Source of the DNA: Borborobacter arsenicus
GTDB taxonomy: Bacteria > Pseudomonadota > Alphaproteobacteria > Rhizobiales > Rhizobiaceae
Assembly (NCBI RefSeq): GCF_003934165.1
Contig: NZ_ML133514.1
Span: 281-51,123 of the forward strand
Direction of reading: 5' to 3'
Length of the DNA stretch: 50,843 nucleotides
Under the pieces are notes generated by a model. That model worked only from the letters and a program-made list of their open reading frames with translations, did not search any database and was not told the DNA's origin. The position numbers were made by a program, and so were the translations under genes. Below, piece after piece: positions 27,446-44,385 of the stretch. Each line of letters opens with the position of its first letter. Within the stretch, counting starts at the first letter, position 1.

Positions 27446-28366
27446 CTACGGTCGCTTGACCATCCCGGAAGGCAGCAGGCCGTCGCGCATACGCCGCAGG
27501 TTTTCTGCAACGATCACGGCGCCGGACTTCGGGTCGGGCGAGGTTGCAACATGGGGAGTAAGAATGAGATTGGGCGCTGACCAGAGCGGATTGCCGGGTT
27601 CTGGCGGTTCGGACTGGAGCACGTCAAGCGTTGCGCCGGCAAGGTGGCCCGTCTCCAAGGCAGCGCACAGGTCAGTCTCGACACATTGAGCACCGCGGCC
27701 GATATTGATGAAGTAGGAACCGGGAGGCATCTTCGCGAAGAAGCGCGTATCGAACAGGTTTCGTGTCTCAGCTGTGAGCGGCAGCAGCGCAATCAGGATC
27801 AAGCTGCGCCGCAGAAAGGCCTCAAGCCGATCCCAGCCGCTGAAGATTTTGACGCCTTCCAATTCCCTTGGCTGCCTCGACCAGCCGGCAACGTCGAAAT
27901 CGAGTTCCGCAAGCGCCTGCGCAACAGGTGCGCCAAGTGCGCCCAGGCCCAGGATGCCGACCTTGCGATCGCGCGCGAAGATCCTGGGATGCTCATGCCA
28001 GATGCGCGCGGCCTGCTGGTTGCGGTAGCGATCGAAATGGCGGTGGTAGTCGAGGACCGCGTGCAAGGCGTATTCCACCATGCCCGAGACCTGGGCTGGC
28101 TCGACCAGTCTGGCGACAGGCAACCCTACGGGGATGGAGAGATCGCCGGCAATCTGGTCGGTGCCGGCGCTCAGGAGGTGGATTCCCTTCAGATTGGGAT
28201 AGAGGTCAAGCGATCCGGGCGGGATCTTCCAGACGAGCATGGCATCGATTTCCGCAGGGTCGCCGACATCCGGCCACACGCGTAGTTCCAGCCCCGGGAT
28301 CTGCTCGGCGAGAGCTTTCTGCCACTGCACCGGGTCGGCGGACTCACTATGGAAGACAACCCGCAT
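27446..28366 (-). CDS. D-2-hydroxyacid dehydrogenase (GhrA-like)
   Basis: 306 residues from the ATG at 28366; an upstream start inside the ridA gene is not used. The NAD(P)-binding loop is GILGLGALGAPVAQAL near residue 145, the catalytic region includes NIGRGAQCVETDL, and the acid/base His is in ILTPHVATS. Length and layout match glyoxylate/hydroxypyruvate reductase A. It would reduce a 2-oxo acid to its D-2-hydroxy acid or the reverse. It is the last gene of the minus-strand GntR-led set, 10 bases after ridA, so the 2-oxo acid may be pyruvate, 2-oxobutyrate or 2-oxo-4-methylthiobutyrate; that choice is inference. Confidence 0.88.
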   Translation of the reverse strand: MRVVFHSESADPVQWQKALAEQIPGLELRVWPDVGDPAEIDAMLVWKIPPGSLDLYPNLKGIHLLSAGTDQIAGDLSIPVGLPVARLVEPAQVSGMVEYALHAVLDYHRHFDRYRNQQAARIWHEHPRIFARDRKVGILGLGALGAPVAQALAELDFDVAGWSRQPRELEGVKIFSGWDRLEAFLRRSLILIALLPLTAETRNLFDTRFFAKMPPGSYFINIGRGAQCVETDLCAALETGHLAGATLDVLQSEPPEPGNPLWSAPNLILTPHVATSPDPKSGAVIVAENLRRMRDGLLPSGMVKRP

Positions 28367-28376
28367 AGCGCCGATC

Positions 28377-28727
28377 TCAGACCATGGCGGTTGCGATGAT
28401 CTCGACAAGATAGCGCTCGTCGGCCAGGCGCACCTCGCCGCAGGCGCGGGCAGGCGGATTGTCCGCATCGATCCAGGCGTCCCAAATCTCGTTCATGCCG
28501 TCATAGTCATCCATGCTCTTCAGCCAGATGGTCGCCGAGACCACCTTGGACCGGGAACTGCCGGCCTCTTCCAGCAATTGGTCGATCTTGGCCAGTGTCT
28601 CCCTTGTCTGGACCTTGATGTCAGCCTGCTTGCTGTCACCGACTTGCCCACCGAGATAGACCATGTTGCCCACCACGACAGCGCGACTGCGGCGGCTATT
28701 GGCATCGATTCGCTTCATTTTCTGCAT
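28377..28727 (-). CDS. RidA-family enamine/imine deaminase
   Basis: 116 residues; an internal ATG at 28718 is an alternative start. Visible RidA elements: VGNMVYLGGQVGD, TRETLAKIDQLLEEAGSSRSKVVSATIWL and PPARACGEVRLAD, the last containing the Arg expected in the active site. Family members hydrolyse 2-aminoacrylate or 2-iminobutyrate released by PLP-dependent lyases and dehydratases, giving the 2-oxo acid and ammonia. Lying in the same divergent cluster as a C-S lyase, it fits removal of 2-aminoacrylate. Eight bases separate it from the molybdoenzyme gene. Confidence 0.9.
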   Translation of the reverse strand: MQKMKRIDANSRRSRAVVVGNMVYLGGQVGDSKQADIKVQTRETLAKIDQLLEEAGSSRSKVVSATIWLKSMDDYDGMNEIWDAWIDADNPPARACGEVRLADERYLVEIIATAMV

Positions 28728-28735
28728 TCCGATTT

Positions 28736-31069
28736 CTATTGGGAATTGTGCTGCCGCGCCTCGAAAAGCGGCGGCTGGAAGGCGGTGACTGGGGGCAACT
28801 CACCACGATAGGGCTCGATTTCGACAAGGCAGGTCTGGGCGCTCGGTCCCTGCGCGAGGCGCGACGTGCCCTTGTCGCACGTGAGCACATTCGGGTTGCC
28901 GTGCTTTTCCAGCGGCATTTCTGCAGCCGGATCGGTGGGGTCGTACCAGGCACCGGTGGAAAGCTGGACGACGCCGGGGCGGATCTGATCCGAAAGTATG
29001 GCTGCCGCCAGGCAACTGCCTCTATCGTTGAAGACGCGTACTATATCCCGGTCGGAAATGCCGCGTGCCTTCGCATCCTGCGGGTTGAGTCGGATCACTT
29101 CCCGGCCCTTGATCTTCATGCTCCGGGAATGGCTTGCCGAATCATACTGACTGTGAAGCCGCGAAACCGGCTGGTTGGACATGAGATGCAGTGGAAAATC
29201 CTGTACCTGCGCGCTTCCGAGCCACTCAAAGGGCTCCAGCCATGCTGGATGACCGGGACAGTCATCGTAGCCGAAGCGATTGATCGTCGAGGAGAAGATC
29301 TCGATCCGGCCGGAGGGTGTGCCCAGCCTGTTGGCCTCGGGGTCCTGCCGGAATGTATCGAGCAGGGGGGGCTGGTGGTCGGGTTCGGGCAGGAGGCAAA
29401 AACCGCTCTTCCAGAACGTGTCGAAATCGGGGAGAGCATGACCTGCCGCTGCCGCACGCTGCCGTGCCAATGTGAACAGGTAACGCAACCAGGATTCCTC
29501 GTCGCGCCCATCGGTGAAGCGATGGGCCAGCCCCAAATGTTCCGTGATGCCGCTGAAGACTGAAAAGTCGTCGCGCGCCTCACCTGCAGGATCGGCCAGA
29601 CGATGCGAGGCGGCAATGAAGCGATCCCTGCTCGATGCAGCGATGTCGTTGCGCTCAAGCGCCGTCGTTACCGGGAAAACGATATCGGCATGGCGGGCAA
29701 GCGCGTTCCACCATGAGTCATGGACGATGACGGTCTGCGGCCTCTGCCAGGCGCGGCGCAGCCGGTTGAGGTCCTGATGGTGGTGGAAGGGATTCCCGCC
29801 GGCCCAGTAGACCAGTCTGATATCGGGATAGGTCCGCCGCTCCCCGTTGAAATCGTATGCCCCGCCTGGCTCGAGCAGCATGTCGGCGATGCGCGCGACC
29901 GGGATGAAGTCGCTGACCGCATTGTCGCCTTGTGGCAGGGAGGGCCAGGAAATTTCCGGCGTGGCATGTCCGACACCGTTGACGGAGGCATAGCCGAAGC
30001 CAAAGCCCCCGCCCGGCAAGCCGATCTGACCCAGCATCGCCGCAAGCGTGATTGCCATCCAGTATGGTTGTTCGCCGTGGTCGGCGCGCTGCAGCGACCA
30101 GGCCATCATGAGGATTGTGCGTTTGGCTGCCATGCGGCGGGCAAGATTGCGAATCTCGGCTGCAGGAATCCCGGCAATCGCAGCCGCCCAATCGGCGTCC
30201 TTGGCCACACCATCCGTCTCGCCCAGAAGATAGGCCAGGAACCGCTCGAAACCGGTGGTGTAACGCTCCAGGAATGTGCGGTCATGCAGGCCTTCGGCCA
30301 TCAGCGTGTAGGCAATGCCGAGCATCATCGCGACATCCGTATTCGGACGGATTGCCAGCCAGTACGGCTGCGGGTCGGACACGGTATCGTCGCGGATCGG
30401 GCTGATTGAGACCAGTTCGGCGCCATTGCGCTGCGCCCGGGCAAGGGACTCCTGGAGGATATGGCGCGAAATCCCGCCGGAACTCACTTGGGCATTCTTG
30501 CGCGGCAGCCCGCCGAACATGACGATCAATTCGGAATGCTTCGCTACGACATTCCAGGAAGTATGCTGCGACACCAGCCCGCGCTTGTCGCCGATTACAT
30601 GGGGCACGATCGTGTCGGCTGCAGCGTAGCTATAGTTCTGCACCGACCTGACATAGCCGCCGATGCAATTGAGGAAGCGGTGGATCTGGCTTTGCGCGTG
30701 GTGGAAGCGCCCGGCACTTCCCCAGCCATATGAGCCGCCATAGATGGCGCCATTGCCATGCTGTGTGCGGACACGATCAAGCTCGGCAGCGGCCAGCTTC
30801 AGTGCCTCGTCCCATGAAACCTCCACGAAGGGCTCGGCGCCACGATCTTTGCCGCCAGCGGCATGGCCCTTCTCCAGAAAGGACTTGCGCACAGCCGGGC
30901 GCAGGATGCGACTTGGATTGTCTAGCGCATCGATCATGGCATTGGCCAGCGGAGACGGGTCAGGGTCCTCCTCGATCGGCACAAGGCCGGCGACACGGCC
31001 ATCGGCAAAGCGCGCACGATAGCTCCCCCAATGCGTGACGACCGTGTGGTGATCAGGCTCTGGAAGCAT
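28736..31069 (-). CDS. bisC: Cytosolic molybdopterin sulfoxide/N-oxide reductase (BisC/DMSO reductase family)
   Basis: 777 residues, the size I recall for E. coli BisC, with no Tat signal and no N-terminal Fe-S motif, so a soluble cytoplasmic bis-MGD enzyme. The start has THWGSYRA; the active-site segment GGSYGWGSAGRFHHAQ places Trp116, and Ser147 in NYSYAAAD is the expected molybdenum ligand; both numbers coincide with Rhodobacter DMSO reductase. MPT-binding segments (IVMFGGLPRKN, YWAGGNPFHHHQDLNRL, LMSNQPVSRLHSQYD) are intact. BisC reduces biotin sulfoxide and free methionine S-sulfoxide. GAGGAG precedes the ATG. Placed between ridA and a quinone oxidoreductase, within a sulfur-lyase neighbourhood. 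Other S- or N-oxides are possible substrates. Confidence 0.93.
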   Translation of the reverse strand: MLPEPDHHTVVTHWGSYRARFADGRVAGLVPIEEDPDPSPLANAMIDALDNPSRILRPAVRKSFLEKGHAAGGKDRGAEPFVEVSWDEALKLAAAELDRVRTQHGNGAIYGGSYGWGSAGRFHHAQSQIHRFLNCIGGYVRSVQNYSYAAADTIVPHVIGDKRGLVSQHTSWNVVAKHSELIVMFGGLPRKNAQVSSGGISRHILQESLARAQRNGAELVSISPIRDDTVSDPQPYWLAIRPNTDVAMMLGIAYTLMAEGLHDRTFLERYTTGFERFLAYLLGETDGVAKDADWAAAIAGIPAAEIRNLARRMAAKRTILMMAWSLQRADHGEQPYWMAITLAAMLGQIGLPGGGFGFGYASVNGVGHATPEISWPSLPQGDNAVSDFIPVARIADMLLEPGGAYDFNGERRTYPDIRLVYWAGGNPFHHHQDLNRLRRAWQRPQTVIVHDSWWNALARHADIVFPVTTALERNDIAASSRDRFIAASHRLADPAGEARDDFSVFSGITEHLGLAHRFTDGRDEESWLRYLFTLARQRAAAAGHALPDFDTFWKSGFCLLPEPDHQPPLLDTFRQDPEANRLGTPSGRIEIFSSTINRFGYDDCPGHPAWLEPFEWLGSAQVQDFPLHLMSNQPVSRLHSQYDSASHSRSMKIKGREVIRLNPQDAKARGISDRDIVRVFNDRGSCLAAAILSDQIRPGVVQLSTGAWYDPTDPAAEMPLEKHGNPNVLTCDKGTSRLAQGPSAQTCLVEIEPYRGELPPVTAFQPPLFEARQHNSQ

Positions 31070-31122
31070 GACGATATCTCCTCATGGCAGGACACCTTGC
31101 GACGCCGGCAGCCGGTCCGCGC

Positions 31123-32097
31123 TCATGGCAGGAGGACAATCTGGCCGGTGGTGCGGCGTGATTCCAGATCTCGATGGGCTTGCGCCGCCTCGGCCAGCGG
31201 ATAGGTCTGGTTGATGTCGGCGCGCACGATGCCTTTTCGCATCGCTGCAAACAGGTTCTGTGCCGTCTCCAGCAAGTCGTTGCGGTCGGCTATGTAAGGA
31301 AAGACTTGGGGGCGCGACAGCGCAACGCATTTGGGCGCCAGTACTGCGATGTTGACTGGCGGCACAGCGCCGGACGCATTGCCGAAGCTGACCAGATGGC
31401 CGAATTTGGCGACAGCCTGCAGCGAGGCCTCGAAACTGTCCTTGCCGACGCCGTCATAGATATAGCGGCAGCCACGCCCCGAGGTAATTTCGGCGACACG
31501 ATCTGCAACATTCTCGGTGGTGCTGACGATGACGTGATCGGCACCGGCCTGGCGCACCCCTGCCTCCTTGGCATCGGAGCCTACAGTGCCGATGACCGTG
31601 CAGCCGATCGACTTGGCCCAGGCAGTCAGCAGAAGCCCTATGCCACCGGCGGCGGCGTGGATCAGGACGGTATCGCCGGCAGACGCCTGCGTGGTCTTGT
31701 GCAGCAGGCGCTCTGCCGTCATGCCCTTGAGCATCAGGGCCGCCGCTGCCCTGTCGCCGATATCGTCGGGTAGTGGCACCATGCGCTCGGCCGGCACGTT
31801 GCGCCTTTCGCTATAAGCGCCAGGTGCGGTCATCACATAGGCGACACGCTGGCCGACGGCGAGGCCTGTGACCCCCGGCCCAACTTCCTCGACAATGCCT
31901 GCGGCCTCCATTCCCGGCGTGCCGGGCAGGGTCATCATCGGGTAGGCGCCCTTGCGGACATAGATGTCGATAAAGTTCACGCCGATCGCGGTATGGCGCA
32001 CGGCAACTTCCCCTTCACCCGGTGCGGTGTCCGGGCGCTCCTGCCATTCCAGAACTTCGGGTCCGCCCTGGATGGTCTGGATAATTGCGTGTGACAT
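31123..32097 (-). CDS. qor: NADPH:quinone oxidoreductase (zeta-crystallin-like MDR)
   Basis: 324 residues of the medium-chain dehydrogenase/reductase family without zinc ligands. The GroES-like half shows GVNFIDIYVRKGAYP, and the Rossmann half has HAAAGGIGLLLTAWAKSIG. This is the standard QOR layout; it reduces quinones or enones with NADPH in one- or two-electron steps. A GGGAG site precedes the ATG. It lies between gntR and bisC and could supply electrons or detoxify reactive products; neither is demonstrated. Confidence 0.9.
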   Translation of the reverse strand: MSHAIIQTIQGGPEVLEWQERPDTAPGEGEVAVRHTAIGVNFIDIYVRKGAYPMMTLPGTPGMEAAGIVEEVGPGVTGLAVGQRVAYVMTAPGAYSERRNVPAERMVPLPDDIGDRAAAALMLKGMTAERLLHKTTQASAGDTVLIHAAAGGIGLLLTAWAKSIGCTVIGTVGSDAKEAGVRQAGADHVIVSTTENVADRVAEITSGRGCRYIYDGVGKDSFEASLQAVAKFGHLVSFGNASGAVPPVNIAVLAPKCVALSRPQVFPYIADRNDLLETAQNLFAAMRKGIVRADINQTYPLAEAAQAHRDLESRRTTGQIVLLP

Positions 32098-32148
32098 GGC
32101 TTGTACTCCCGTGTTCTCGATGCCTGCGACCGAACGTGCAGCCGACTT

Positions 32149-32844
32149 TCAGACCTGCTGAGGCTGTTGAAATTTATGAATGATTCCCTGCGTGGAGGAG
32201 GGCGGTGTCCAGGCGCCGATCAGGCGCCAGGCAAAGCCAAGATGTTCCTTCTGGAGATGGGCAAGTTGCTCGCCGTCACGCTCCTTGAGGGCTCGCAACA
32301 GGTCCCCGTGTTCGCCGGCGGCGGCGGTCCACTCCTGCATGGCCATGACCGCAAGATAGCGAATGCGATAAAGCCTGATGTTCAGGTGGCCATGCATCTC
32401 GATCAGGGTCGAATTGTGTGAGGCGGCGATGATCGAAAGATGGAATGCCTGGTTGGCCGCGAAATAAGCAGCACGATCCTCATCGGTGAAGGCCTTGGCC
32501 ATCACGCCGCACCAGTGTTCCACCCTCAGAATGTCCGCCTCGGTCGCCAGCCGGCAGGCGAGGCGCCCGCCGAGCGATTCCAGCTCGGTATAGACGGTCA
32601 GCATGTCCGCGATTTCGGCATCACTGGACTTGGTCACGACTGCCCCCTTGTTCGGGGTCAGATCCACCAGGCGTTCCATTGCGAGAATCTTCAGCGCGTC
32701 GCGCAGCGGGGTGCGCGACACATTCAGCGTATCGGCGATCGCGCGTTCGCGAATCCGCTCTCCGGGCTTCAGCCTGTCATGAATGATGAGGTCGCGAATA
32801 TAATCCGCAACCTGCTGCGGAAGCGGTGCCACTGTCTCCCCCAT
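32149..32844 (-). CDS. GntR-family regulator, FCD subfamily
   Basis: 231 residues from the ATG at 32844; longer in-frame starts run through the control region. The winged helix is ERIRERAIADTLNVSRTPLRDALKIL near residue 40, and the all-helical FCD effector domain follows, with a metal-binding His/Asp pattern (AFHLSIIAASHN; HLNIRLYRIRY). FCD regulators bind carboxylates or amino acids. It is the first gene of the minus-strand set and divergent from the beta-lyase gene, so it probably governs both directions. A direct repeat with family-like half-sites lies in the shared control region. Confidence 0.92.
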   Translation of the reverse strand: MGETVAPLPQQVADYIRDLIIHDRLKPGERIRERAIADTLNVSRTPLRDALKILAMERLVDLTPNKGAVVTKSSDAEIADMLTVYTELESLGGRLACRLATEADILRVEHWCGVMAKAFTDEDRAAYFAANQAFHLSIIAASHNSTLIEMHGHLNIRLYRIRYLAVMAMQEWTAAAGEHGDLLRALKERDGEQLAHLQKEHLGFAWRLIGAWTPPSSTQGIIHKFQQPQQV

Positions 32845-32938
32845 GCCGGATTCCCCTGATCGAACCACCGGAATATCGCTTTGTTTTCGGTCGGTTATCA
32901 AGCTCAAGCCCCGGTCATTCCAAAATCGCGAATAGATT

Positions 32939-32970
32939 TGGCATACAATATTGACGGATGGCATGCAATA
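32939..32970. promoter_or_regulatory. Direct-repeat operator candidate for the GntR/FCD regulator
   Basis: TGGCATACAATA at 32939-32950 and TGGCATGCAATA at 32959-32970: two 12-base copies differing at one position, 20 bases apart start to start, i.e. about two helical turns. On the opposite strand each reads ATTGTATGCCA-like, the kind of site bound by FCD-type GntR proteins. They lie 50-81 bases before the beta-lyase start and upstream of gntR. Confidence 0.55.
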
Positions 32971-33019
32971 CGCCAAACTCTTTCTGTCAACCTTCATGGA
33001 GGAATGGGAAGGTGCAGGC

Positions 33020-34237
33020 ATGAACAGCATCGATGCGCAATCGGCGGCCTTGCGGCCCGAAACGCTTGCCAGCCATTTGGGCCGGCCGGGCAGACGTGGT
33101 GCGCCCGTCAATGCGCCGGTCCATCGCGCATCGACGATTCTCTTCGACAGCGTTCGCGAACTGGAGGAGGCGAAAGCCGCGCGGTTCGAAAAGGGGGCGG
33201 TATTTTACGGCCGCTTCGGGACGCCCGACATATTTGCCTTCGAGGAAGCAATCTCTGCGCTGGAAGGTGGCTATGGGACCATCGCGGTGCCGTCGGGTCT
33301 CGCAGCATGCGTCCTGCCGCTCGTAGCCTTCCTGAGGCCTGGCGACCATGTGCTGGTGACCGATTCCATCTACGAGCCGGCACGCACCAGCCTGTCGGCC
33401 TTCATCGAACGCAATGGCGTCGAGGTTACGTTTTACGACCCTCGGATCGGGCAAGGCATCGAAGCCCTGTTCAAGCCGAATACCCGGATGGTCTATCTGG
33501 AATCGCCGGGCTCGCTCACATTCGAGGTGCAGGATATCCCCGCCATTGCCGCTGTCGCCAGGAAACACAGCGCCGTTACGGTCTGCGATAATACCTGGGC
33601 GACGGCTCTTTTCCATCGCCCGATCTCGCTGGGGGTCGACATTGTCGTGCAGGCGGCGACAAAATACATCGTCGGCCATTCCGATGCGATGCTGGGGCTG
33701 GTCACGGCCGGACCAGAGCACTATCGCGAACTGCGGCAGGCAGCCAACTGGCTCGGCTACCGGGTATCCCCCGATGATGTGTTTCTGGCAGCACGTGGCC
33801 TGCGCAGCCTGGCGGCGCGGCTGCGCCAGCACCATGAAACCGGCGTGTCGCTTGCGCAATGGCTGGAAACATTGCCCGAGATACGCCGTGTCATTCACCC
33901 GGCACTGCCTTCACATCCGGACCACGCAATCTGGAAGCGGGATTTTTCCGGAGCATCGGGCCTGTTTGCGATCATCCTTCGGGCAACCTCGAAGGCGGAA
34001 GCAATCGCCTTTGTCGAGCGCCTGCGTCTGTTTGGAATGGGCTTTTCATGGGGTGGCTTCGAAAGCCTCGTGCTGATCGGCGATCCTGCTCATGCCCGCA
34101 CCGCCACGGACTGGCGGGAGGAAGGAATATTGATCCGCCTTCATGCCGGACTTGAGCATGTCGATGACTTGCAGGCCGATCTAGCACGGGCGATCAACAG
34201 GCTCGCCCAGGCCGATCGGAAACCCGCAGCGGTTTGA
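33020..34237 (+). CDS. metC: Cystathionine beta-lyase-type PLP enzyme (C-S beta-lyase)
   Basis: 405 residues from the ATG at 33020 (GGGAAGGTG upstream). Fold type I Cys/Met-metabolism enzyme. The Schiff-base Lys is Lys215 in ATKYIVGHSDAML, and the wording GHSDAM is that of bacterial cystathionine beta-lyase, not of methionine gamma-lyase or cystathionine gamma-synthase (GHGD). The PLP phosphate contacts include the conserved YGRFGTP and VPSGLAA regions. Beta-elimination gives a thiol, pyruvate and ammonia from cystathionine or other S-substituted cysteines. Being in a catabolic cluster beside an importer, it more likely degrades imported cysteine conjugates than makes methionine. Confidence 0.9.
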   Translation: MNSIDAQSAALRPETLASHLGRPGRRGAPVNAPVHRASTILFDSVRELEEAKAARFEKGAVFYGRFGTPDIFAFEEAISALEGGYGTIAVPSGLAACVLPLVAFLRPGDHVLVTDSIYEPARTSLSAFIERNGVEVTFYDPRIGQGIEALFKPNTRMVYLESPGSLTFEVQDIPAIAAVARKHSAVTVCDNTWATALFHRPISLGVDIVVQAATKYIVGHSDAMLGLVTAGPEHYRELRQAANWLGYRVSPDDVFLAARGLRSLAARLRQHHETGVSLAQWLETLPEIRRVIHPALPSHPDHAIWKRDFSGASGLFAIILRATSKAEAIAFVERLRLFGMGFSWGGFESLVLIGDPAHARTATDWREEGILIRLHAGLEHVDDLQADLARAINRLAQADRKPAAV

Positions 34238-34269
34238 TCCCGTTTTTTCAAAGGAGAGGGGAACTATCA

Positions 34270-35265
34270 ATGGATGGACTGATAAAACACCTTGGAAGAA
34301 CCATAGCGGCTGCAATTATCGGCAGCAGCCTCATGATGGCAGTGCCGAGCCATGCCGACGAGAATCTTGAATGGGCTTCCGGTTCGCCGGGCGGCAGCTG
34401 GTATACGATCGTGACGGGTCTGGCCAACATCGTCATGGAGAAGAATACCGACATCAAGATCCGTATCGTGCCGGGCGGCGGGCGGGACAATCCCACGCTG
34501 ATCGATGGCGGCATCAGCCAGATCGCCATGGGCATCGATTTCCTGGCCGCGGCAGCCAGCAAGGGTGAAGATCCCTACAAGAAGAAGCATGAGACGCTGC
34601 GCTCGCTGGGCGGGACCTGGGCGCCGGCCGAATTCCATGTCATCGTTCCGCAGGACGAGACAAGGACACTTGATCAAATCCTTGCGGATCCGAAGCTCCG
34701 CATCGGCACATCGCCGCGCGCCACGTCGGAGGAATTGACGCTGCAGCGCGCCCTCGAATTTTACGGCAATTCAGGCGAAAAGATCTCTGCCGGCGGCGGC
34801 ACCTTGATCAATGGCAGCTACACCCAGCTTATTTCGGCATTCCAGGACGACCAGATCGACATCCTCTGGGGAGCCGGGAGCGTGCCTACCGGTATTGCGC
34901 TCGAAACCGAAACCGGTCGGCGAGCGGCAAAGCTGATCGCCTTCCCGGAGCCGTTGATGCAGAGCCTGTCTGAGGGCTTCGGCTATGGCAAGGGCGAGAT
35001 TCCGGCGAGTTCCTATGCAACATTGCAGCCGGACGGCGCCGCGGTGCCGGTCACCACTTTGGAAGCGCTCATCCTTATCTCGTCGGATGTCTCCGAAGAT
35101 GCCGCCTACCGCATTACCAAAACCCTGATCGAGAACCGCGAGCGTTTTCCCAACATCTACAAGGTGCTGGCCAAATACGATCCGAACATCGCCTGGCAGA
35201 ACCAGCCGGTGCCGCTGCATCCGGGAGCCGAAAAGGCCTACAAGGAACTAGGCTTCATGAAGTGA
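34270..35265 (+). CDS. TAXI-family TRAP importer solute receptor
   Basis: 331 residues from the ATG at 34270, with GGAGAGGGG upstream. Sec signal peptide cleaved after SHA (about residue 28). The mature start EWASGSPGGSWYTIVTGLANI and the GGGRDNPTLIDGG segment define the TAXI (TRAP-associated extracytoplasmic immunogenic) receptor type. These deliver ligands to a fused TRAP permease; the gene for such a permease follows. Known ligands include amino acids and dicarboxylates, so an amino-acid derivative fits the surrounding enzymes. Confidence 0.92.
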   Translation: MDGLIKHLGRTIAAAIIGSSLMMAVPSHADENLEWASGSPGGSWYTIVTGLANIVMEKNTDIKIRIVPGGGRDNPTLIDGGISQIAMGIDFLAAAASKGEDPYKKKHETLRSLGGTWAPAEFHVIVPQDETRTLDQILADPKLRIGTSPRATSEELTLQRALEFYGNSGEKISAGGGTLINGSYTQLISAFQDDQIDILWGAGSVPTGIALETETGRRAAKLIAFPEPLMQSLSEGFGYGKGEIPASSYATLQPDGAAVPVTTLEALILISSDVSEDAAYRITKTLIENRERFPNIYKVLAKYDPNIAWQNQPVPLHPGAEKAYKELGFMK

Positions 35266-35281
35266 TTTCCGGGTGGCGTTA

Positions 35282-35308
35282 GCGCGTTTCGGCTCTGGCC
35301 GAACGCGC
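35282..35308. terminator. Hairpin between receptor and permease genes
   Basis: GCGCGTTTCGGC paired with GCCGAACGCGC (one bulged T) around a short loop, 17 bases after the receptor stop codon. No T run follows. A hairpin here is typical for keeping binding-protein mRNA above permease mRNA. Confidence 0.5.
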
Positions 35309-35409
35309 AAAGCCGCTTACCAGAACCGGCGCATGGCGTTTTTCCGAAGCAGTGGGATTCGGGTTTATGCGCTGAATGGGTATCCTTCGACAGTTTCTGG
35401 GGAACAAAA

Positions 35410-37329: not shown

Positions 37330-37338
37330 GAGAAGCCA

Positions 37339-38052
37339 ATGCCGGCGCAGAAAACATATTACGGTGTCTCGATCGGAATCCTGATGGTGAACAGCACCTT
37401 CAGGCGGTATCTCGGCGATATCGGCAATGCCGAGACCTGGTCCTTCCCGGTGCAGTACAAGATCGTCCATGATGCCGTGCCGACCAGAATGACCGATCTG
37501 CACAATGCAAGCCTGCTGGAACCGTTCAAGCGTGCTGCCGACGAACTGATCGCAGCCGGCGTCGACGGCATAACCACCACTTGTGGCTTTCTCTCCATCT
37601 ACCAGAAGGAGCTCGCGGACCATTGCAGCGTCCCGGTTGCCACGAGCAGCCTGCTCCAGGTGCCGATGGTCGAACGCATGCTGCCCACCGGCAAGCGCGT
37701 TGGCATCCTGACCTACAATGGCGACGTGTTGAACGGGCCTTATCTTGAGGCAGTCGGCATTTCCCAGGACACGCCGGTTATCGGCGTGCCGCAGGATTCC
37801 AACTTCGTGCGCTGGATCAAGGAAGGTGACAATAGCGTCACCTTCGACACGCTCAGGCGCGAAGTCGTTGCCGCTGCCGAAACTATGATCGAGCGGCATC
37901 CCGACGTCGGCGCTATCGTTTCCGAGTGCACCAATCTTGCCCCCTTCACCTATGACATCTCCAAGCGCCTGGGGATTCCCGTTTATGATACTGTGGCGAT
38001 GGTCAATCTTTTCCACGCCAGCCTGCGGCCGCGCCGCTATCAGAACGATTGA
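37339..38052 (+). CDS. Asp/Glu/hydantoin racemase-superfamily protein
   Basis: 237 residues. The two catalytic Cys of the superfamily are plausible in GITTTCGFLS (about residue 79) and IVSECTNLAPF (about residue 196), each in the position expected for the paired-Cys acid/base mechanism. The family includes aspartate/glutamate racemase, hydantoin racemase, maleate isomerase and arylmalonate decarboxylase. The second motif (SECTN) is most racemase-like. In this cluster it may interconvert D- and L-forms of the imported amino acid so that the following dehydrogenase can use it. Confidence 0.8.
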   Translation: MPAQKTYYGVSIGILMVNSTFRRYLGDIGNAETWSFPVQYKIVHDAVPTRMTDLHNASLLEPFKRAADELIAAGVDGITTTCGFLSIYQKELADHCSVPVATSSLLQVPMVERMLPTGKRVGILTYNGDVLNGPYLEAVGISQDTPVIGVPQDSNFVRWIKEGDNSVTFDTLRREVVAAAETMIERHPDVGAIVSECTNLAPFTYDISKRLGIPVYDTVAMVNLFHASLRPRRYQND

Positions 38053-38058
38053 TCTGCC

Positions 38059-39180
38059 GTGCCGGCAGTTGCTTCATCCGACTATGTGGTTATTGGCGGC
38101 GGCATTGTCGGCGCTGCCGTTTCCTATGGGCTGGCCAGGGCCGGCGAGAAAGTGCTGCTGCTGGATGAGGGCGATATTGCCTTTCGCGCCGCGCGGGGCA
38201 ATTTCGGCAATGTCTGGGTCCAGGGCAAGGGTGGCACATCACCGGCCTATGCCGACCTCACCCGCCGAGCCGCGAATGACTGGGCAGACTTCGCACGGGA
38301 ATTGGAGGAACGCACCGGTCAGGACCTTCATTTTCGCCGTCCGGGCGCTTTCTATATCTGTTTCTCCTCGGAAGAACTCCAGCGGCGGGCTGAGACCATG
38401 GCCCGGATCGATAAAAGCGCCACGGTGGCAAGCCCGTTCGAGGTTCTCGATCGGCCCGAACTTGCAAAACGGCTGCCTGAAATCGGGCAGGATGTGGCCG
38501 GGGCCACTTTCTGCCCAAGCGATGGCACCGCAAATCCCCTCCATTTGCTGCGCGCCCTGATTTCCGGGACCATTCTGCTTGGTGGAAGATATTTGCCACG
38601 CCAGGCTGCGCTTGGCTTGCGCGCAGACGGCCAAGGCGTTGCCATCGATACGCAGGCAGGCATCGTCAATGCCGGAAAGGTTGTGCTGGCCGCCGGCCTT
38701 GGAAACGAAAAACTCGCACCGCAACTGGGAATGAGTGCCCCGGTTCGGCCGGTGCGTGGCCAGATCATGGTGACGGAGAAGATCAGGCCGTTCCTGCATT
38801 TCGGCACCAATTTCATACGGCAGACGCTCGAGGGCGGATGCCTGTTCGGCGAATCCTCCGAGGACGCCGGCATGGATGACGCGACGACTTTGCCCGTCCT
38901 AAAGGAGACGGCGCGGCGCGCGATTACCGCGTTTCCGCTGTTGCGCAATGCCCGCGTCGTTCGCGCCTGGGGTGCGCTTCGTATCATGACCAGGGATGGC
39001 GTGCCGGTTTACCAGCAATCGCGTTCCTGCCCCGGAGCTTTTGTCCTCAGCGTCCACAGTGGCGTGACATTGGCTCCGTTTCACTGCGGCGCCATTGTTG
39101 AAGCGCTTCGCGCCGGTGTCCTCGATGCCGGAACATTCGAGCCTTTTTCACCGGAGCGGTTCCATGTTCAGGCTGCTTGA
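38059..39180 (+). CDS. FAD-dependent amino-acid dehydrogenase, DAO-type subunit (OoxB/HcnC-like)
   Basis: 373 residues, starting at a GTG six bases after the previous stop. The FAD motif is VVIGGGIVGAAVSYGLA at residue 10, and the DAO-type C-terminus has LSVHSGVTLAPFHCGAI. With the next two genes (a small 2Fe-2S protein and a second flavoprotein) it makes the three-part layout of opine oxidase, hydrogen cyanide synthase (HcnABC) and D-hydroxyproline dehydrogenase. This subunit would carry the amino-acid oxidation site. The 3' end overlaps the next gene by 17 bases. Confidence 0.88.
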   Translation: MPAVASSDYVVIGGGIVGAAVSYGLARAGEKVLLLDEGDIAFRAARGNFGNVWVQGKGGTSPAYADLTRRAANDWADFARELEERTGQDLHFRRPGAFYICFSSEELQRRAETMARIDKSATVASPFEVLDRPELAKRLPEIGQDVAGATFCPSDGTANPLHLLRALISGTILLGGRYLPRQAALGLRADGQGVAIDTQAGIVNAGKVVLAAGLGNEKLAPQLGMSAPVRPVRGQIMVTEKIRPFLHFGTNFIRQTLEGGCLFGESSEDAGMDDATTLPVLKETARRAITAFPLLRNARVVRAWGALRIMTRDGVPVYQQSRSCPGAFVLSVHSGVTLAPFHCGAIVEALRAGVLDAGTFEPFSPERFHVQAA

Positions 39181-39478
39181 GGCCACAGGCAGGCCGATGA
39201 CCGCAATCAAGGTGGACGGCCGCACCGTGCAGGCCGAGATCGGCGCCAATCTGGCTTCCGTGCTTCTGCGAGCTGGTTTCCAGCCGTTTCGCACCACGCC
39301 GGTGAGCGGAGAGCCGCGCATGCCCTATTGCATGATGGGTGTCTGCTTCGAATGTCTGGCCACGATCGACGGTATCACCAATTGCCAGACCTGCCTTGAA
39401 ACTGTGCGGGAAGGGATGGTGATCGAGCGCCAACTGGGTGCAAGCCCGATCAAACCGGCCGGGGAGGGCGCACCATGA
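39164..39478 (+). CDS. Small [2Fe-2S] ferredoxin-like subunit (HcnA-like)
   Basis: 104 residues, the exact size of HcnA. The 2Fe-2S ligands are in MPYCMMGVCFECLA (C-x4-C-x2-C) with a fourth Cys in the NCQTCL segment. It would transfer electrons between the two flavoprotein subunits of the dehydrogenase. Its ATG at 39164 lies inside the end of the preceding gene and its stop overlaps the next start (ATGA), indicating tight coupling and a fixed stoichiometry. Confidence 0.9.
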   Translation: MFRLLEATGRPMTAIKVDGRTVQAEIGANLASVLLRAGFQPFRTTPVSGEPRMPYCMMGVCFECLATIDGITNCQTCLETVREGMVIERQLGASPIKPAGEGAP

Positions 39479-40875
39479 ACGGCGGAAGCGTCGATCTCGC
39501 CGTGATCGGAGTCGGGCCGGCTGGAATGTCGGCAGCGATCACTGCGCGAAAGCACGGACTCTCGGTTGCGATCTTCGATGAGCAGAATTCTCCCGGCGGG
39601 CAAATCTACCGCAATATAACCGGGCTCGGGTCGGATCGGCTGGCATCGATCCTCGGCGAGGACTATCTGGCGGGGCGCCCGCTCGCCGATGCCTTTGCCG
39701 ACAGCGGTGCCATTTACCGCGCTGGCACGACCGTCTGGCGGATCGGTGAAGGCGGCGTCTCATGGATATCGGCCGCTGACAGCGGCGAAACCGCGGCGCT
39801 GCATGTGCTGGTTGCCACCGGGGCGATGGAACGGCCGTTTCCGGTGAAGGGTTGGACACTGCCGGGGGTGATGACCGCCGGTGCTGCCCAGATCCTTCTA
39901 AAAACGGATCAGACGGTGGTGGACGACGCCGTCTTCGTCGGCTGCGGGCCGCTTCTCTACCTGCTTGCCTATCAATATCTGCAGGCGGGTGTGAGGATCA
40001 GGGCGCTGATCGACACGACCGACAAGAGCAGCCATATTGCCGCCCTACCTAGCCTGCCAGCCGCGCTGCTGAAGCCGTCCTACCTGCGCAAGGGGATGAA
40101 AATGCTTAGCGCCATCCGTCGGTCGGAAACCCCGATCCACCGTGGCGTGACGGAAGTGGATTTTAGCGGAACCGATAGGTTGCAGGCGGTCCGCTGGCGC
40201 GATCGAGTGGGCGAGCATTCCATTGAATGCGACCATGCATTCGTCCATCATGGTGTCATTCCCAATGTCAACGTAACCATGGCGACGCGATGCACGCATC
40301 GCTGGGACGAGGCGCAGACATGCTGGCGGCCCGAGACAGATGCCTTCGGCCGTACCAGCCTTGATTGGCTCACTGTCGCTGGCGACGGGGGCGGTATTGG
40401 CGGTGCCAAGTCCGCCGCACTTTCAGGCGAGATCGCCGCGCTCGGCATCGCGTATGATCTCGGCCGGATAGACCGCTCCGCGTTTGATCGCGCCTCAGGC
40501 CGGCTTCTCTCGAAGCGGCGGCGCGACCTGGCGGTACGTCCTTTTCTTGATCGTCTTTACCGTCCGGCACCACGGTTCCGGGCACCGGTCGATGACGAGG
40601 TTGTCGTTTGCCGATGCGAGGAGGTGCGCCGTGAACAACTCGCCAAGGCGGTCCAGGAAGGGTGCCCGGGCCCGAACCAGCTCAAGAGCTTCACGCGCGC
40701 TGGCATGGGGCCCTGCCAGGGTCGCATGTGCGGCCATACCGTTGTCGAGACGATCGCCCAGCTTTCGGGCCGGTCGCCACAAGACGTCGGATACTACCGG
40801 ATTCGCATGCCTATCAAGCCTGTCACTGTCGGTGAGATTGCCGGATTGACGGCCAGTCAAGGAGAACCATCATGA
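39475..40875 (+). CDS. NAD(P)/FAD-dependent oxidoreductase subunit (OoxA/HcnB-like)
   Basis: 466 residues. FAD motif GVGPAGMSAAITARKHGLSV, the redox-neighbour segment SPGGQIYRNI, a second nucleotide motif GCGPLLYLLAYQYLQAG, and a C-terminal BFD-type Cys cluster (VVCRCEEV, then MGPCQGRMCG) that binds a further 2Fe-2S centre. This is the standard large subunit of opine oxidase/HcnB-type complexes. It overlaps the genes on both sides by four bases. The complex would oxidise an amino acid or opine-like secondary amine and pass electrons to the respiratory chain. Confidence 0.9.
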   Translation: MNGGSVDLAVIGVGPAGMSAAITARKHGLSVAIFDEQNSPGGQIYRNITGLGSDRLASILGEDYLAGRPLADAFADSGAIYRAGTTVWRIGEGGVSWISAADSGETAALHVLVATGAMERPFPVKGWTLPGVMTAGAAQILLKTDQTVVDDAVFVGCGPLLYLLAYQYLQAGVRIRALIDTTDKSSHIAALPSLPAALLKPSYLRKGMKMLSAIRRSETPIHRGVTEVDFSGTDRLQAVRWRDRVGEHSIECDHAFVHHGVIPNVNVTMATRCTHRWDEAQTCWRPETDAFGRTSLDWLTVAGDGGGIGGAKSAALSGEIAALGIAYDLGRIDRSAFDRASGRLLSKRRRDLAVRPFLDRLYRPAPRFRAPVDDEVVVCRCEEVRREQLAKAVQEGCPGPNQLKSFTRAGMGPCQGRMCGHTVVETIAQLSGRSPQDVGYYRIRMPIKPVTVGEIAGLTASQGEPS

Positions 40876-41267
40876 GCAAGCCGAAACCCATCGAATACGC
40901 CGATGCCCCAGCCGAAGTGAAGGCTGTGTTCGACGACATCAAGACATCGCGCAACTTGCAGGACGTCAACAATTTCTGGAAATATCTGGCGAACGATCCG
41001 AAGACGTTGAAGCGGACGTGGGAGAGCGTCAAGGAAGTGATGGCCCCCGGTGCGCTCGATCCTGTCGTCAAGGAAATGGTCTATCTGGCGGTGAGCGTCA
41101 CCAACAATTGCGGCTACTGCATTGCCAGCCACAGCGCGGCGGCGGCGAAGGCTGGCATGACGCAAGAGCAATTCGGTGAATTGATGGCGGTTGTCGGCAT
41201 GGCCAACGAAACCAATCGTCTGGTCAATGGCTACCGGGTTCCGATCGACCCTGCCTTCGAAAAATAG
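40872..41267 (+). CDS. AhpD-like/carboxymuconolactone-decarboxylase-family protein
   Basis: 131 residues. The AhpD peroxidase-reductase motif is intact: CGYCIASHSAAA, i.e. C-x2-C-x3-H, with the upstream Glu of the proton relay in VVKEMVYLAVSV. It overlaps the dehydrogenase subunit by four bases, so it is made with the oxidoreductase complex. A likely role is removal of peroxide or organic hydroperoxide arising at the flavins, or thiol-disulfide chemistry with a sulfur-containing product. Neither is shown by sequence alone. Confidence 0.88.
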   Translation: MSKPKPIEYADAPAEVKAVFDDIKTSRNLQDVNNFWKYLANDPKTLKRTWESVKEVMAPGALDPVVKEMVYLAVSVTNNCGYCIASHSAAAAKAGMTQEQFGELMAVVGMANETNRLVNGYRVPIDPAFEK

Positions 41268-41312
41268 GTCTGGTCACGTATATCGGTATTCCGCAACAAG
41301 GAGATTGGCAGC

Positions 41313-43700
41313 ATGGACGCTGATCGCAGCAAGCAGCTCAAGGCTATCGAAAAGCAGGTCCTCTGGCTTGCCTGCTGGATGATCCACAACGCCAATGCGC
41401 TGCGGGAAAAAGGCGAAGTGAAGGTGGGTGGGCATCAGGCCTCGTCGGCTTCGATGGTGTCGATCATGACGGCACTTTATTTTCATGCGCTGCGAGCCGA
41501 GGACCGGGTAGCGGTGAAGCCGCATGCTTCGCCCGTTTTCCACGCCATACAATATCTGATGGAAAACCAGACGCGCGAGAAGCTGGAGAATTTTCGTGGA
41601 TATGGCGGTGCGCAATCCTATCCAAGCCGCACGAAGGATGTCGACGATGTGGATTTCTCCACCGGCTCGGTGGGTCTTGGCGTGGCGATAACCGCGTTCG
41701 CTTCCATCATGCAGGACTATCTGGCGGCGAAGAAATGGGGCGACGATATCCCTATGGGTCGCATGGTGGCGCTTGTCGGCGATGCCGAGCTTGACGAGGG
41801 CAATATCTATGAATGCCTTCAGGAGGGCTGGAAGCATGACCTGCGCAACACCTGGTGGGTCATCGACTATAATCGCCAGAGCCTCGACGGCGTGGTGCGC
41901 GAAGGCCTGTGGCAGCGCATCGAGGCGGTGTTTCGCGCCTTCGGCTGGGATGTCGTGGTTCTCAAATATGGCGCATTGCAAAGAGCAGCCTTCGAGGAGC
42001 CCGGTGGTGAAAAGCTGCGCGAATGGATCGACCGGTGCCCCAACCAGCTCTATTCGGCACTGACCTTCCAGGGCGGGGAGGCATGGCGCAAGCGGCTCAT
42101 GGACGAGATCGGCGATCAGGGTGATGTCAGCGCGCTGCTGACGCACCGCACCGATGAGGAGCTTTCAGCCCTGATGAACAATCTCGGCGGCCACTGCGTG
42201 GAGAGCCTGGCCGAGGCTTTTGACGCGGTGGACCATGACCGGCCGACGGTTTTCCTGGCCTATACGATCAAGGGATGGGGTACGCCGCTGGCCGGCCACA
42301 AGGACAACCATGCCGGTCTGATGACCGTGCAGCAGATGGCACAGTTCCAGGCAGCCATGGGCGTTGCCGAAGGTGGCGAATGGGAGCCGTTCTCGACCTG
42401 TGCCGGGGATGTCCTCGAGTTGCGCGACTTCCTCGCCGCCGTTCCCTTTTTCGAAAAGGGACGTCGCCGGTTCGCGGCAGCAAAGGTCCCGACGCCGGGC
42501 CCTGTTTTCCTCGATGATAAGGTGTTGTCCACCCAGACAGGCTTCGGCAAGATCCTCGATAGTCTGGCAAAAAGCGACCGTGAGATCGCCGACCGCATCG
42601 TGACCACCGCGCCGGACGTGACCGTATCCACCAATCTGGGGCCGTGGGTCAACCGGCGCGGTCTGTTTGCCCGCGATATCCAGGCCGACACGTTTCGCGA
42701 CGAGCGCGTACCCTCGGCCCAGAAATGGCGGTTTTCGCCGGAAGGCCAGCATATCGAACTCGGCATTGCCGAGATGAACCTGTTTCTGCTGCTGGGTGCG
42801 GCCGGCTTGTCGCACTCGCTGTTCGGGCAACGCGTGCTGCCGATCGGCACCGTCTATGATCCGTTCATCGCGCGCGGTCTCGATGCGCTCAATTATGCCT
42901 GCTATCAGGATGCACGCTTCATGATTGTCGGTACGCCTTCGGGCGTCACGCTTGCGCCAGAGGGCGGGGCGCACCAGTCGATCGGCTCGCAACTCATCGG
43001 CATCAGCCAGGACGGATTGGCGAGCTTCGAGCCGGCGTTCCTCGACGAGCTTTCCGTCATCATGGATTGGGCTTTCGACTACATGCAGCGTGATGGCGAA
43101 GGCGACCCTGATGAGCGCACCTGGCTGCGCGATGAAACGGGTGGTTCGGTCTATCTGCGACTGTCGACGCGGCCGCTGGAGCAGCCGATGCGCCGCAGCG
43201 ACGACCATTTCCGCCGCGGTGTCATCGACGGCGCCTACTGGCTGCGACGCCCGGGTCCCAATGCGGATGTCATTCTGGCCTATCAGGGTACCGTTGCCCC
43301 GGAGGTCATCGATGCTGCCGGGCGCCTGGGCGAGGATCGCCGCGACATCGGCGTCCTTGCCATAACATCGGCGGATCGGCTGAATGCAGGCTGGACCGCC
43401 GCGCAGCGCGCACGCAAGCGGGGCCACAAGAAGGCTGCCGGACATATCGAGACCCTGCTGGCTGATTTGCCGCGCCACTGCGCTATCGTTACCGTCACCG
43501 ATGGCCATCCAGCGACCCTTGCGTGGCTGGGAGGCGTCGCCGGTCACCGGACAATACCGCTAGGCGTGGAACATTTCGGCCAGACCGGATCTATCGCTGA
43601 CCTTTACCGGCATTACGGGATCGACGCAGCCAGCATTGTGCGGACGGTCTCAGGTCTCACTTCAGGCAGGCCGGTCAGTACTTTGGCTATGTCGCAATAG
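41313..43700 (+). CDS. AceE-like homodimeric 2-oxoacid dehydrogenase E1 (transketolase superfamily)
   Basis: 795 residues, shorter than the about 887 of E. coli AceE but collinear with it: KVGGHQASSASMVSIMTALY (AceE GGHMASF region), the ThDP/Mg motif GDAELDEGNIYE...DYNRQSLDG, TIKGWGTPLAGHKDNHAG, and a C-terminal EHFGQTGSIADLYRHYGID. The absence of E2 and E3 genes nearby suggests it uses a housekeeping E2/E3 or acts alone. Pseudomonas putida mdeB, an AceE homologue next to methionine gamma-lyase, is a known precedent for an E1 dedicated to the 2-oxo acid from sulfur amino-acid cleavage. Candidate substrates here are pyruvate or 2-oxobutyrate. GGAG precedes the ATG at 41313. Confidence 0.85.
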   Translation: MDADRSKQLKAIEKQVLWLACWMIHNANALREKGEVKVGGHQASSASMVSIMTALYFHALRAEDRVAVKPHASPVFHAIQYLMENQTREKLENFRGYGGAQSYPSRTKDVDDVDFSTGSVGLGVAITAFASIMQDYLAAKKWGDDIPMGRMVALVGDAELDEGNIYECLQEGWKHDLRNTWWVIDYNRQSLDGVVREGLWQRIEAVFRAFGWDVVVLKYGALQRAAFEEPGGEKLREWIDRCPNQLYSALTFQGGEAWRKRLMDEIGDQGDVSALLTHRTDEELSALMNNLGGHCVESLAEAFDAVDHDRPTVFLAYTIKGWGTPLAGHKDNHAGLMTVQQMAQFQAAMGVAEGGEWEPFSTCAGDVLELRDFLAAVPFFEKGRRRFAAAKVPTPGPVFLDDKVLSTQTGFGKILDSLAKSDREIADRIVTTAPDVTVSTNLGPWVNRRGLFARDIQADTFRDERVPSAQKWRFSPEGQHIELGIAEMNLFLLLGAAGLSHSLFGQRVLPIGTVYDPFIARGLDALNYACYQDARFMIVGTPSGVTLAPEGGAHQSIGSQLIGISQDGLASFEPAFLDELSVIMDWAFDYMQRDGEGDPDERTWLRDETGGSVYLRLSTRPLEQPMRRSDDHFRRGVIDGAYWLRRPGPNADVILAYQGTVAPEVIDAAGRLGEDRRDIGVLAITSADRLNAGWTAAQRARKRGHKKAAGHIETLLADLPRHCAIVTVTDGHPATLAWLGGVAGHRTIPLGVEHFGQTGSIADLYRHYGIDAASIVRTVSGLTSGRPVSTLAMSQ

Positions 43701-43714
43701 CGCTTCAGCATCTG

Positions 43715-44085: not shown

Positions 44086-44099
44086 GCTTCATTCTATAT

Positions 44100-44116
44100 A
44101 TGACCACTTTAGTCAT
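44100..44116. promoter_or_regulatory. Inverted repeat in the toxin-antitoxin promoter
   Basis: ATGAC-CACTTTA-GTCAT, a 5-base inverted repeat ending 15 bases before the antitoxin start, next to a TATATA sequence that could serve as the -10 element. Position fits autorepression by the antitoxin/toxin complex, as is usual for Phd-type systems. Confidence 0.5.
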
Positions 44117-44131
44117 TGGGAGTTTCCAGCG

Positions 44132-44383: not shown

Positions 44384-44385
44384 CA

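Follow-up and report, generated by a model that had tools for sequence, protein, structure and literature searches.

A conserved divergent gene cluster of Borborobacter arsenicus as a candidate island for the breakdown of oxidised S-substituted amino acids

The cluster and its proposed function

A 50,843-nt stretch of the Borborobacter arsenicus genome (contig NZ_ML133514.1, positions 281 to 51,123; the whole stretch is called the window below) carries 14 genes at window positions 27446-43700, organized in two divergent arms. The genome comprises 5.4 Mb (G000, cluster on contig C23). The minus-strand arm encodes, in this order, a GntR-FCD regulator, a quinone-reductase-like protein, a BisC-type reductase, a Rid protein and a GhrA-like hydroxyacid dehydrogenase; the plus-strand arm encodes a beta-lyase, a TAXI receptor and permease, a two-Cys racemase, the flavin adenine dinucleotide (FAD), 2Fe-2S and FAD/BFD subunits of a dehydrogenase, an AhpD-like protein and an AceE-like E1 component. 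This gene set is a real, conserved unit, and with a probability of about one half it is a catabolic island, induced by its substrate, that serves the use of an oxidised S-substituted cysteine-type amino acid, e.g. an S-alkylcysteine sulfoxide. Two observations fit reduction of the S-oxide followed by cleavage of the C-S bond: the genes are kept together as a unit, and a betaproteobacterial lineage also has BisC next to a beta-lyase.

In the proposed pathway, the GntR-FCD regulator would control both arms via a tandem repeat between them, and the 14 genes are probably under joint control. The TAXI-TRAP system (an ATP-binding cassette, or ABC, importer in one relative) would import the amino acid, and the probably cytoplasmic BisC-type protein, judging by its family, would reduce the S-oxide to the thioether, so that later cleavage would free a thiol and not a reactive sulfenic acid. 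The beta-lyase would cut the C-S bond of the L-form, yielding the thiol and 2-aminoacrylate or 2-aminocrotonate, whose hydrolysis to the 2-oxo acid would be aided by Rid. The racemase would epimerise a form that the lyase cannot use, and the three-subunit dehydrogenase would convert it into an imino acid, again a Rid-type substrate. Finally, E1 would oxidatively decarboxylate the 2-oxo acid, most likely 2-oxobutyrate, to propionyl-CoA, with E2 and E3 provided from elsewhere; alternatively, the 2-oxo acid could be reduced by the hydroxyacid dehydrogenase.

An initial annotation of the window had proposed import, reduction of an S-oxide, cleavage of the C-S bond and an oxidative branch. Though unproven as to the substrate, this chemistry is the leading reading and the one best supported by the conservation of the unit and the BisC-lyase pairing; the context of E1 points to 2-oxobutyrate instead of the pyruvate originally assumed as the product (see below).

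Conservation of the gene set

Genomes were sampled from the family (n=247), the order (n=397) and the class (n=385), alongside a plasmid collection. Two of the 247 family genomes, G000 and G131, encode the lyase subfamily at 75% identity or more; identity drops to 52-53% in the three remaining matches (E <= 1e-120). In the order sample it is found in 7/397 genomes at 70-100% identity, the next best match having 54%. In total, these are eight genomes of four families: G000 and G131 (f1), G350, G380 and G407 (f28), G305 and G341 (f13), and G545 (f16).

The GntR regulator, the lyase and an importer occur together in all eight genomes, and the regulator gene is divergent from the lyase gene in six of them. 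The seven clusters with enough sequence all encode the BisC-type reductase, the racemase and the complete three-subunit dehydrogenase; Rid, the quinone reductase and E1 are present in five clusters each. G407 has the full 14-gene set in identical order, and G350 and G380 have the gene set and order of the window without the Rid gene. In G131, an ABC importer (identified by eye) replaces TAXI, and an MmgE/PrpD-family gene occupies the position of the hydroxyacid dehydrogenase. G305 and G341 keep Rid, BisC, GntR, the dehydrogenase, the racemase, TAXI and the lyase on a single strand, with GntR between the dehydrogenase and BisC; the quinone reductase, the AhpD-like protein and E1 are absent from the stretch read, and the G305 genes lie on two contig ends. 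G545 is represented by a 3.1-kb contig only, holding GntR, the lyase, the TAXI receptor and the start of the permease. The initial annotation had made its proposal depend on the cluster being kept as a unit, and so it is in these eight genomes of four families.

Moreover, racemase matches at E <= 1e-72 were found in 13/397 genomes of the order sample, including six of the seven with the lyase subfamily (hypergeometric probability 2e-9, which takes both counts from the same order sample and ignores kinship, three of the genomes being of one genus and two of another).

Upstream repeat and regulator

Alignment of the regions upstream of the lyase gene (G000, G131, G350, G380, G407, G545) reveals a block with long identity runs in otherwise diverged DNA. 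This block contains TGGCATACAATA and TGGCATGCAATA at a spacing of 20 bp. At least one exact copy of the repeat lies upstream of the lyase in 8/8 clusters; both exact copies are present in five (G000, G350, G380, G407, G545), and a single copy is present in G131, G341 and G305. In the whole B. arsenicus genome, TKGCATRCAATA has two exact matches, both at this site, with about 0.8-2.6 expected by chance. In G305 and G341 (f13), the GntR gene has relocated, but the repeat is still found by the lyase. The natural reading is that the repeat block is a candidate operator of the GntR-FCD regulator.

The GntR operator type TNGT(0-3)ACNA was found in none of the six upstream regions, where the tandem repeat is seen instead. 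Repeat copies with a single mismatch (Bosea, G600, G241, G131, G350) are too near chance expectation to count; those of Bosea and G600 sit near the gap between the GntR and permease genes.

The beta-lyase

The lyase scores above the cut-off of the cystathionine beta-lyase equivalog TIGR01324 (451 bits, cut-off 365.9) and below that of met_gam_lyase (243 bits, cut-off 549.7). Its motif is Tyr-Glu-Pro, versus Tyr-Gly-Cys in the gamma-lyase of locus L031, and it is not classed as a methionine gamma-lyase. The same genome encodes a paralogue, MetC (642 bits with TIGR01324), which is 47% identical to the cluster lyase and whose gene lies beside an AapJ-like gene (by eye).

For comparison we use what we take to be the residue numbering and roles of the E. 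coli lyase (K210, D185, R372, S339, W340, R59, D116, Y238, Y338). Catalytic positions matching K210, D185, R372, S339 and W340, i.e. the residues contacting pyridoxal phosphate (PLP) and the substrate carboxylate and the Ser-Trp motif, are kept in the cluster lyase, while the positions matching R59, D116, Y238 and Y338 are Phe, Thr, Asn and Phe in all six subfamily members aligned. In all, 26 positions are fixed in these six members and not shared by the six sequences aligned for comparison, which mostly have gaps at three of the 26. With the reservations given below, these residues hint at a substrate other than cystathionine.

According to the available part of PMC13197776, PatB-type beta-lyases cut cysteine-S-conjugate sulfoxides; with the PatB/MetC-type bacterial alliinases or S-alkylcysteine lyases treated there, the cluster lyase would be expected to share beta-elimination of cysteine S-conjugates. 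The known alliinase action leads to a thiosulfinate, whereas in the window the reductase could first remove the S-oxide.

The BisC-type reductase and its pairing with lyases

The BisC-type protein scores 1008.4 bits against bisC_fam TIGR00509, marginally under the cut-off of 1017.55, and its closest solved relative by sequence is the dimethyl sulfoxide reductase 1eu1. No twin-arginine leader is seen in its N-terminus (MLPEPDHHTVV..., similar by eye in G131, G350, G407 and Bosea), and the reductase is probably cytoplasmic. In this respect it apparently resembles E. coli BisC, a cytoplasmic biotin sulfoxide reductase of the same family (PMC12096835, available part). The E. coli enzyme serves repair, whereas the window gene lies in a putatively catabolic operon, 8 bp from Rid, and has an intergenic control region in common with the lyase. 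Reduction of free methionine sulfoxide by E. coli BisC is stated in the title of a reference cited in PMC12096835, and the part of PMC8137612 at hand describes an E. coli strain that turns S-methylcysteine sulfoxide into S-methylcysteine, the responsible enzyme being unassigned there.

All three Cupriavidus plasmids examined have BisC (52-53% identity) and a beta-lyase (53-54%) as divergent neighbours; further genes seen by eye at one of them (L219), all unscored, are DapA-like, a short-chain dehydrogenase/reductase, a periplasmic binding protein, a DadA-like oxidoreductase and others. In G235, a beta-lyase lies 2.6 kb from BisC and adjoins a protein with 3-mercaptopyruvate sulfurtransferase as its top match (233 bits, cut-off 250), and in Rhizobium gallicum BisC and a beta-lyase are about 12.5 kb apart. 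The co-occurrence of BisC, beta-lyase and TAXI, suggested for checking by the initial annotation, is seen in the TAXI-bearing lyase clusters with enough sequence, but BisC and lyases are also found separately.

Alternatively, the substrate could be a beta-substituted alanine of a different kind, e.g. a heterocyclic legume amino acid, that carries an N-O bond or is an N-oxide. BisC would then reduce the N-O group and the lyase would cut a C-N bond; we regard this as very unlikely. Plant mimosinase is a cystathionine-beta-lyase homologue that cuts a C-N bond, and the altered lyase pocket and the origin of the Bosea relative from a Vicia nodule would agree with such a substrate, as would the reduction of both N- and S-oxides by the related enzyme MtsZ (PMC5122715, available part). 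Still, Pfam and NCBIfam revealed nothing N-specific among the cluster genes, the sulfurtransferase-like neighbour in G235 points to sulfur, and the Bosea set has no lyase.

Canavanine degradation was considered separately, as a PLP lyase, Rid and an N-O-reducing enzyme would fit it. It is disfavoured by the beta type of the lyase and by CtdA not being seen: no B3/4 (CtdA) match was found among the cluster proteins scanned with Pfam and NCBIfam, whereas in the canavanine gamma-lyase system CtdA, a B3/4 editing protein, adjoins the degradation operon (PMC10018355, available part).

Two other BisC relatives have surroundings of their own. On the pAt plasmid of Agrobacterium Ach5 (L201, 5328-18050), a relative with 56% identity is surrounded by genes whose annotations are urocanate hydratase, histidine ammonia-lyase and hydrolases, and may take part in the breakdown of an oxidised histidine derivative. 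A Shinella relative (61.5%; L199, 7204-16361) is accompanied by several genes annotated as RraA-type aldolases and by an enolase-superfamily protein.

The AceE-like E1

E1 scores 180 bits with the aceE model, far below the cut-off of 860. Its relatives were found in 72/247 family genomes at E <= 1e-30, these being partly fragments or AceE-like matches of 28-30% identity. In 80 named E1 loci, the gene directly upstream is ACC (1-aminocyclopropane-1-carboxylate) deaminase in six and methionine gamma-lyase in five; of the one example of each that was scored, the deaminase is above the NCBIfam cut-off, and gamma-lyase is the top match of a shortened reading, below the cut-off. Both enzymes yield 2-oxobutyrate. 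Because some of its relatives follow these genes, E1 is probably the E1 component of a 2-oxobutyrate dehydrogenase. A 2-oxobutyrate-forming neighbour is thus present at 11/80 loci, and the window itself fits only if its lyase makes 2-oxobutyrate. This family context (11/80 loci) favours 2-oxobutyrate over pyruvate, the 2-oxo acid that the initial annotation had assumed. Nor is E1 a cluster-specific partner, as neighbours like those in the cluster are present at one of the 80 named loci (L023, Rhizobiales bacterium 65-79, MKRJ01000035.1, taken as the same contig as G131).

An Lrp-type regulator is encoded near E1 at 47/80 loci under a loose rule (within 7 kb, loose clustering) and at 9/80 under a strict one (35% identity, 3 kb); the choice of rule affects this count alone and leaves the counts of ACC deaminase and gamma-lyase unaffected. 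The codon-usage gene caller gave no calls in 14/80 E1 loci. In six Rhizobium-group loci (L022, L024, L025, L026, L029, L061), the Lrp gene is divergent from ACC deaminase and E1 follows immediately. This arrangement suggests a dedicated 2-oxobutyrate dehydrogenase for ACC breakdown in these genomes, and would link the E1 family to the disposal of 2-oxobutyrate.

In P. putida, mdeRAB combines a methionine gamma-lyase and an AceE-like E1 (MdeB) in one operon. By gene content, the window resembles it in having a PLP-dependent C-S lyase and an AceE-like E1 in one operon, and differs in the beta type of its lyase, in GntR-FCD instead of Lrp, and in the addition of import, S-oxide reduction and amino-acid oxidation.

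The upstream neighbours of E1 relatives (methionine gamma-lyase 5/80, ACC deaminase 6/80, both 2-oxobutyrate producers) would also agree with methionine sulfoxide, or a close homologue, as the food, which we consider unlikely. BisC would then yield methionine, and the racemase, dehydrogenase and Rid would yield 4-methylthio-2-oxobutyrate, to be converted by E1 to methylthiopropionyl-CoA or reduced by the hydroxyacid dehydrogenase; alternatively, the lyase would act as a gamma-lyase, giving methanethiol and 2-oxobutyrate. In line with this, the G981 racemase (65% identical; L197, 13609-15153), which has no three-subunit dehydrogenase with it, adjoins a MetQ/NlpA-family binding protein. On a Pantoea agglomerans onion plasmid, a BisC relative (52%; L222, 5481-13709) lies between two sets annotated as methionine ABC importers, each with a MetQ/NlpA binding protein, an ATPase and a methionine ABC permease (the one tested is below the cut-off of the MetQ/NlpA models). 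MtsZ, moreover, seems suited to methionine sulfoxide, judging by the part of PMC5122715 at hand. Set against this are the lyase, which belongs to the beta-lyase clade by its scores and has Tyr-Glu-Pro instead of Tyr-Gly-Cys, and the window receptor, which is TAXI and not MetQ.

The TAXI importer

In the glutamate TAXI-TRAP receptor VcGluP, Tyr45 and Gln93 dominate glutamate binding (PMC11574862, available part). The window receptor belongs to the same family and has different residues at these positions, Trp at Tyr45 and Ile at Gln93 (by eye, through alignment to 1us4), both kept in all nine TAXI receptors aligned. As both key ligand positions are replaced, glutamate is unlikely to be the ligand. 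A single relative of the receptor, that of Bosea, was found in the plasmid collection at E <= 1e-60.

The core module and loci without the lyase subfamily

The racemase, the three-subunit dehydrogenase and Rid are also found together in six loci without the lyase subfamily: the Bosea vestrisii plasmid, G600, G349, G314, G241 and an Agrobacterium pAt plasmid (6/6). In five of these (Bosea, G600, G349, G314 and, at 34%, G241), the stretch read encodes an RraA-like aldolase and lacks E1. The three components form the most widely shared core, while the lyase, BisC, E1 and the hydroxyacid dehydrogenase are variable. Because the core recurs without the lyase subfamily, it would represent an amino-acid epimerisation and oxidation module, to which BisC, the lyase and E1 were apparently added in the window's lineage.

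In the racemase, the candidate catalytic cysteines C82 and C197 are invariant in 13 aligned sequences, as in two-Cys racemases. In the class sample it was found at E <= 1e-72 in 2/385 genomes, B. arsenicus itself and G981 only; weaker relatives are present in 31/247 family genomes at E <= 1e-40, and the eight that were read (L144-L151) differ in their surroundings. Related three-subunit dehydrogenases are presumably the opine oxidases OoxAB/NoxAB (the name OoxB itself comes from annotation), which likewise have a DAO-type FAD subunit (38% identity with OoxB) beside a 2Fe-2S subunit; the window dehydrogenase differs from them in being coupled to a racemase.

The similarity of the FAD subunit to OoxB would be compatible with the cluster consisting of at least two independent modules served by one importer, where the racemase, the OoxB-like dehydrogenase and Rid oxidise a D- or N-substituted amino acid, and BisC and the lyase deal with repair or a side product. 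Modules of the dehydrogenase and Rid are indeed combined with importers of many types, and the gene listings show neither BisC nor a lyase in their vicinity (Agrobacterium pAt, Cupriavidus N-1, Oceanisphaera, Azospirillum). However, the lyase subfamily at 70% identity or more was met in this cluster only, by the importer, and the genes from the permease to E1 overlap or nearly touch, which makes such a composite rather improbable.

On an Oceanisphaera plasmid (L203, 973-9916), a module of the three-subunit dehydrogenase and RidA is found with a DctP-type TRAP importer near a gene annotated as dddP.

Assessment of the proposed pathway

Several observations weigh against the breakdown of an S-oxide by the complete set of enzymes. 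The genome of G545, rated 98% complete, has no racemase at E <= 1e-10, and in five genomes (G281, G356, G386, G514, G981) a racemase is present without an adjacent three-subunit dehydrogenase. Among the six loci without the lyase subfamily, three have BisC without any lyase (Bosea, G600, G241), and two have a beta-lyase without BisC (G349, G314), this lyase being MetC-like (72-73% identity with the B. arsenicus MetC). BisC was near none of six other beta-lyases (on four plasmids with incomplete gene tables and in G176 and G083), and hence the BisC-lyase pairing is not general. BisC-family enzymes also reduce N-oxides; a Tyr/Trp motif is common to BisC and an annotated TorA, and was dropped as a discriminator of S- and N-oxide reductases for this reason. 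As for the lyase pocket, the B. arsenicus MetC has Arg, Asn, Ile and Tyr at the four changed positions, keeping just R59 and Y338 of the E. coli set, and Phe at position 338 also occurs outside the subfamily (G349, G314, G235). Finally, the context of E1 points to 2-oxobutyrate, whereas beta-elimination of a plain cysteine conjugate gives pyruvate.

A more specific version of the pathway, which taken as a whole is doubtful, would combine three features. The S-oxide would be removed before the C-S bond is cut, avoiding the toxic sulfenic acid or thiosulfinate of alliinase chemistry; the racemase and three-subunit dehydrogenase would take the stereoisomer that the lyase cannot cut; and the 2-oxobutyrate-type E1 would indicate a beta-methylated or homocysteine-derived conjugate (e.g. 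methyllanthionine-like) as the true substrate. In the preferred S-oxide pathway, the lyase branch and the dehydrogenase branch may or may not share a single substrate.

Sulfur amino acid S-oxides are common in crucifers, onions, legumes and oxidised biomass. No dedicated bacterial operon for their uptake and degradation was found among the open-licence papers listed, nor was a description of such a cluster (topics BisC, S-methylcysteine sulfoxide, methionine sulfoxide and 2-oxobutyrate dehydrogenase), which is weak evidence of novelty; the parts are known, and their combination is apparently undescribed. With its defined lyase subfamily, its receptor and a candidate operator, the cluster makes the question testable with a few purified proteins.

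Gene composition and neighbourhood

Families were assigned by Pfam and NCBIfam profile scores versus curated cut-offs (Table 1). The enzyme families named by the initial annotation are all present where it had placed them; it had overlooked the quinone reductase and the GntR/FCD regulator.

Table 1. Features of the cluster in window coordinates, with strand and supporting profile matches
Feature	Position	Strand	Basis
D-2-hydroxyacid dehydrogenase, GhrA-like, 306 amino acids	27446..28366	-	PF02826; top NCBIfam match GhrA 205.6 bits, under cut-off
Rid-family imine/enamine deaminase	28377..28727	-	PF01042; TIGR00004 65 bits, below cut-off 106
BisC-type molybdopterin S/N-oxide reductase	28736..31069	-	PF00384, PF01568, PF18364; TIGR00509
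NADPH:quinone-reductase-like oxidoreductase	31123..32097	-	PF08240, PF00107; PRK10754 324 bits, cut-off 348
GntR-family regulator with FCD ligand domain	32149..32844	-	PF00392 and PF07729
Operator-like block, two direct TGGCATRCAATA copies (32939, 32959), 20 bp apart	32938..32972	+	between the arms
PLP-dependent beta C-S lyase, cystathionine beta-lyase type, distinct subfamily	33020..34237	+	PF01053; TIGR01324
TAXI-TRAP solute-binding protein	34270..35265	+	PF16868; TIGR02122 above cut-off
TAXI-TRAP fused permease	35410..37329	+	PF06808; TIGR02123 543 bits, cut-off 320.7
Asp/Glu/hydantoin racemase-superfamily protein, two conserved Cys	37339..38052	+	PF01177; PRK07475 above cut-off
FAD amino-acid dehydrogenase subunit, OoxB relative	38059..39180	+	PF01266; 38% to annotated OoxB
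2Fe-2S dehydrogenase subunit	39164..39478	+	PF13510
FAD/NAD and BFD-like [2Fe-2S] dehydrogenase subunit	39475..40875	+	PF07992, PF17806, PF04324
AhpD-like protein (carboxymuconolactone decarboxylase family), CxxC	40872..41267	+	PF02627; TIGR00778; CGYC seen in translation
AceE-like thiamin-diphosphate E1, probably 2-oxobutyrate type	41313..43700	+	PF00456, PF17831, PF22613

The intergenic gaps are 10 and 8 bp between the hydroxyacid dehydrogenase, Rid and BisC, and 9, 6, -17, -4, -4 and 45 bp from the TAXI permease to E1; such short gaps and overlaps within the arms are as in operons. Alignment with relatives places the likely starts of the lyase at ATG 33020 and of the TAXI receptor at ATG 34270; a longer lyase open reading frame of 428 amino acids begins at 32951, within the conserved DNA block. 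The hydroxyacid dehydrogenase has GhrA-type relatives in PDB and is 61-64% identical to its counterparts in G350, G380 and G407. No Rfam family reached the gathering score in window positions 26000-45500.

Just upstream of the cluster, at 19668-26619, the window encodes a DAO-family oxidoreductase, an ABC importer (ATPase, two permeases and an SBP_bac_8 binding protein) and an aldehyde dehydrogenase, a set that looks catabolic. Downstream, at 45050-47922, the window encodes a hybrid histidine kinase, whose sensor domain is of the 5TMR type, and a receiver protein separate from it.

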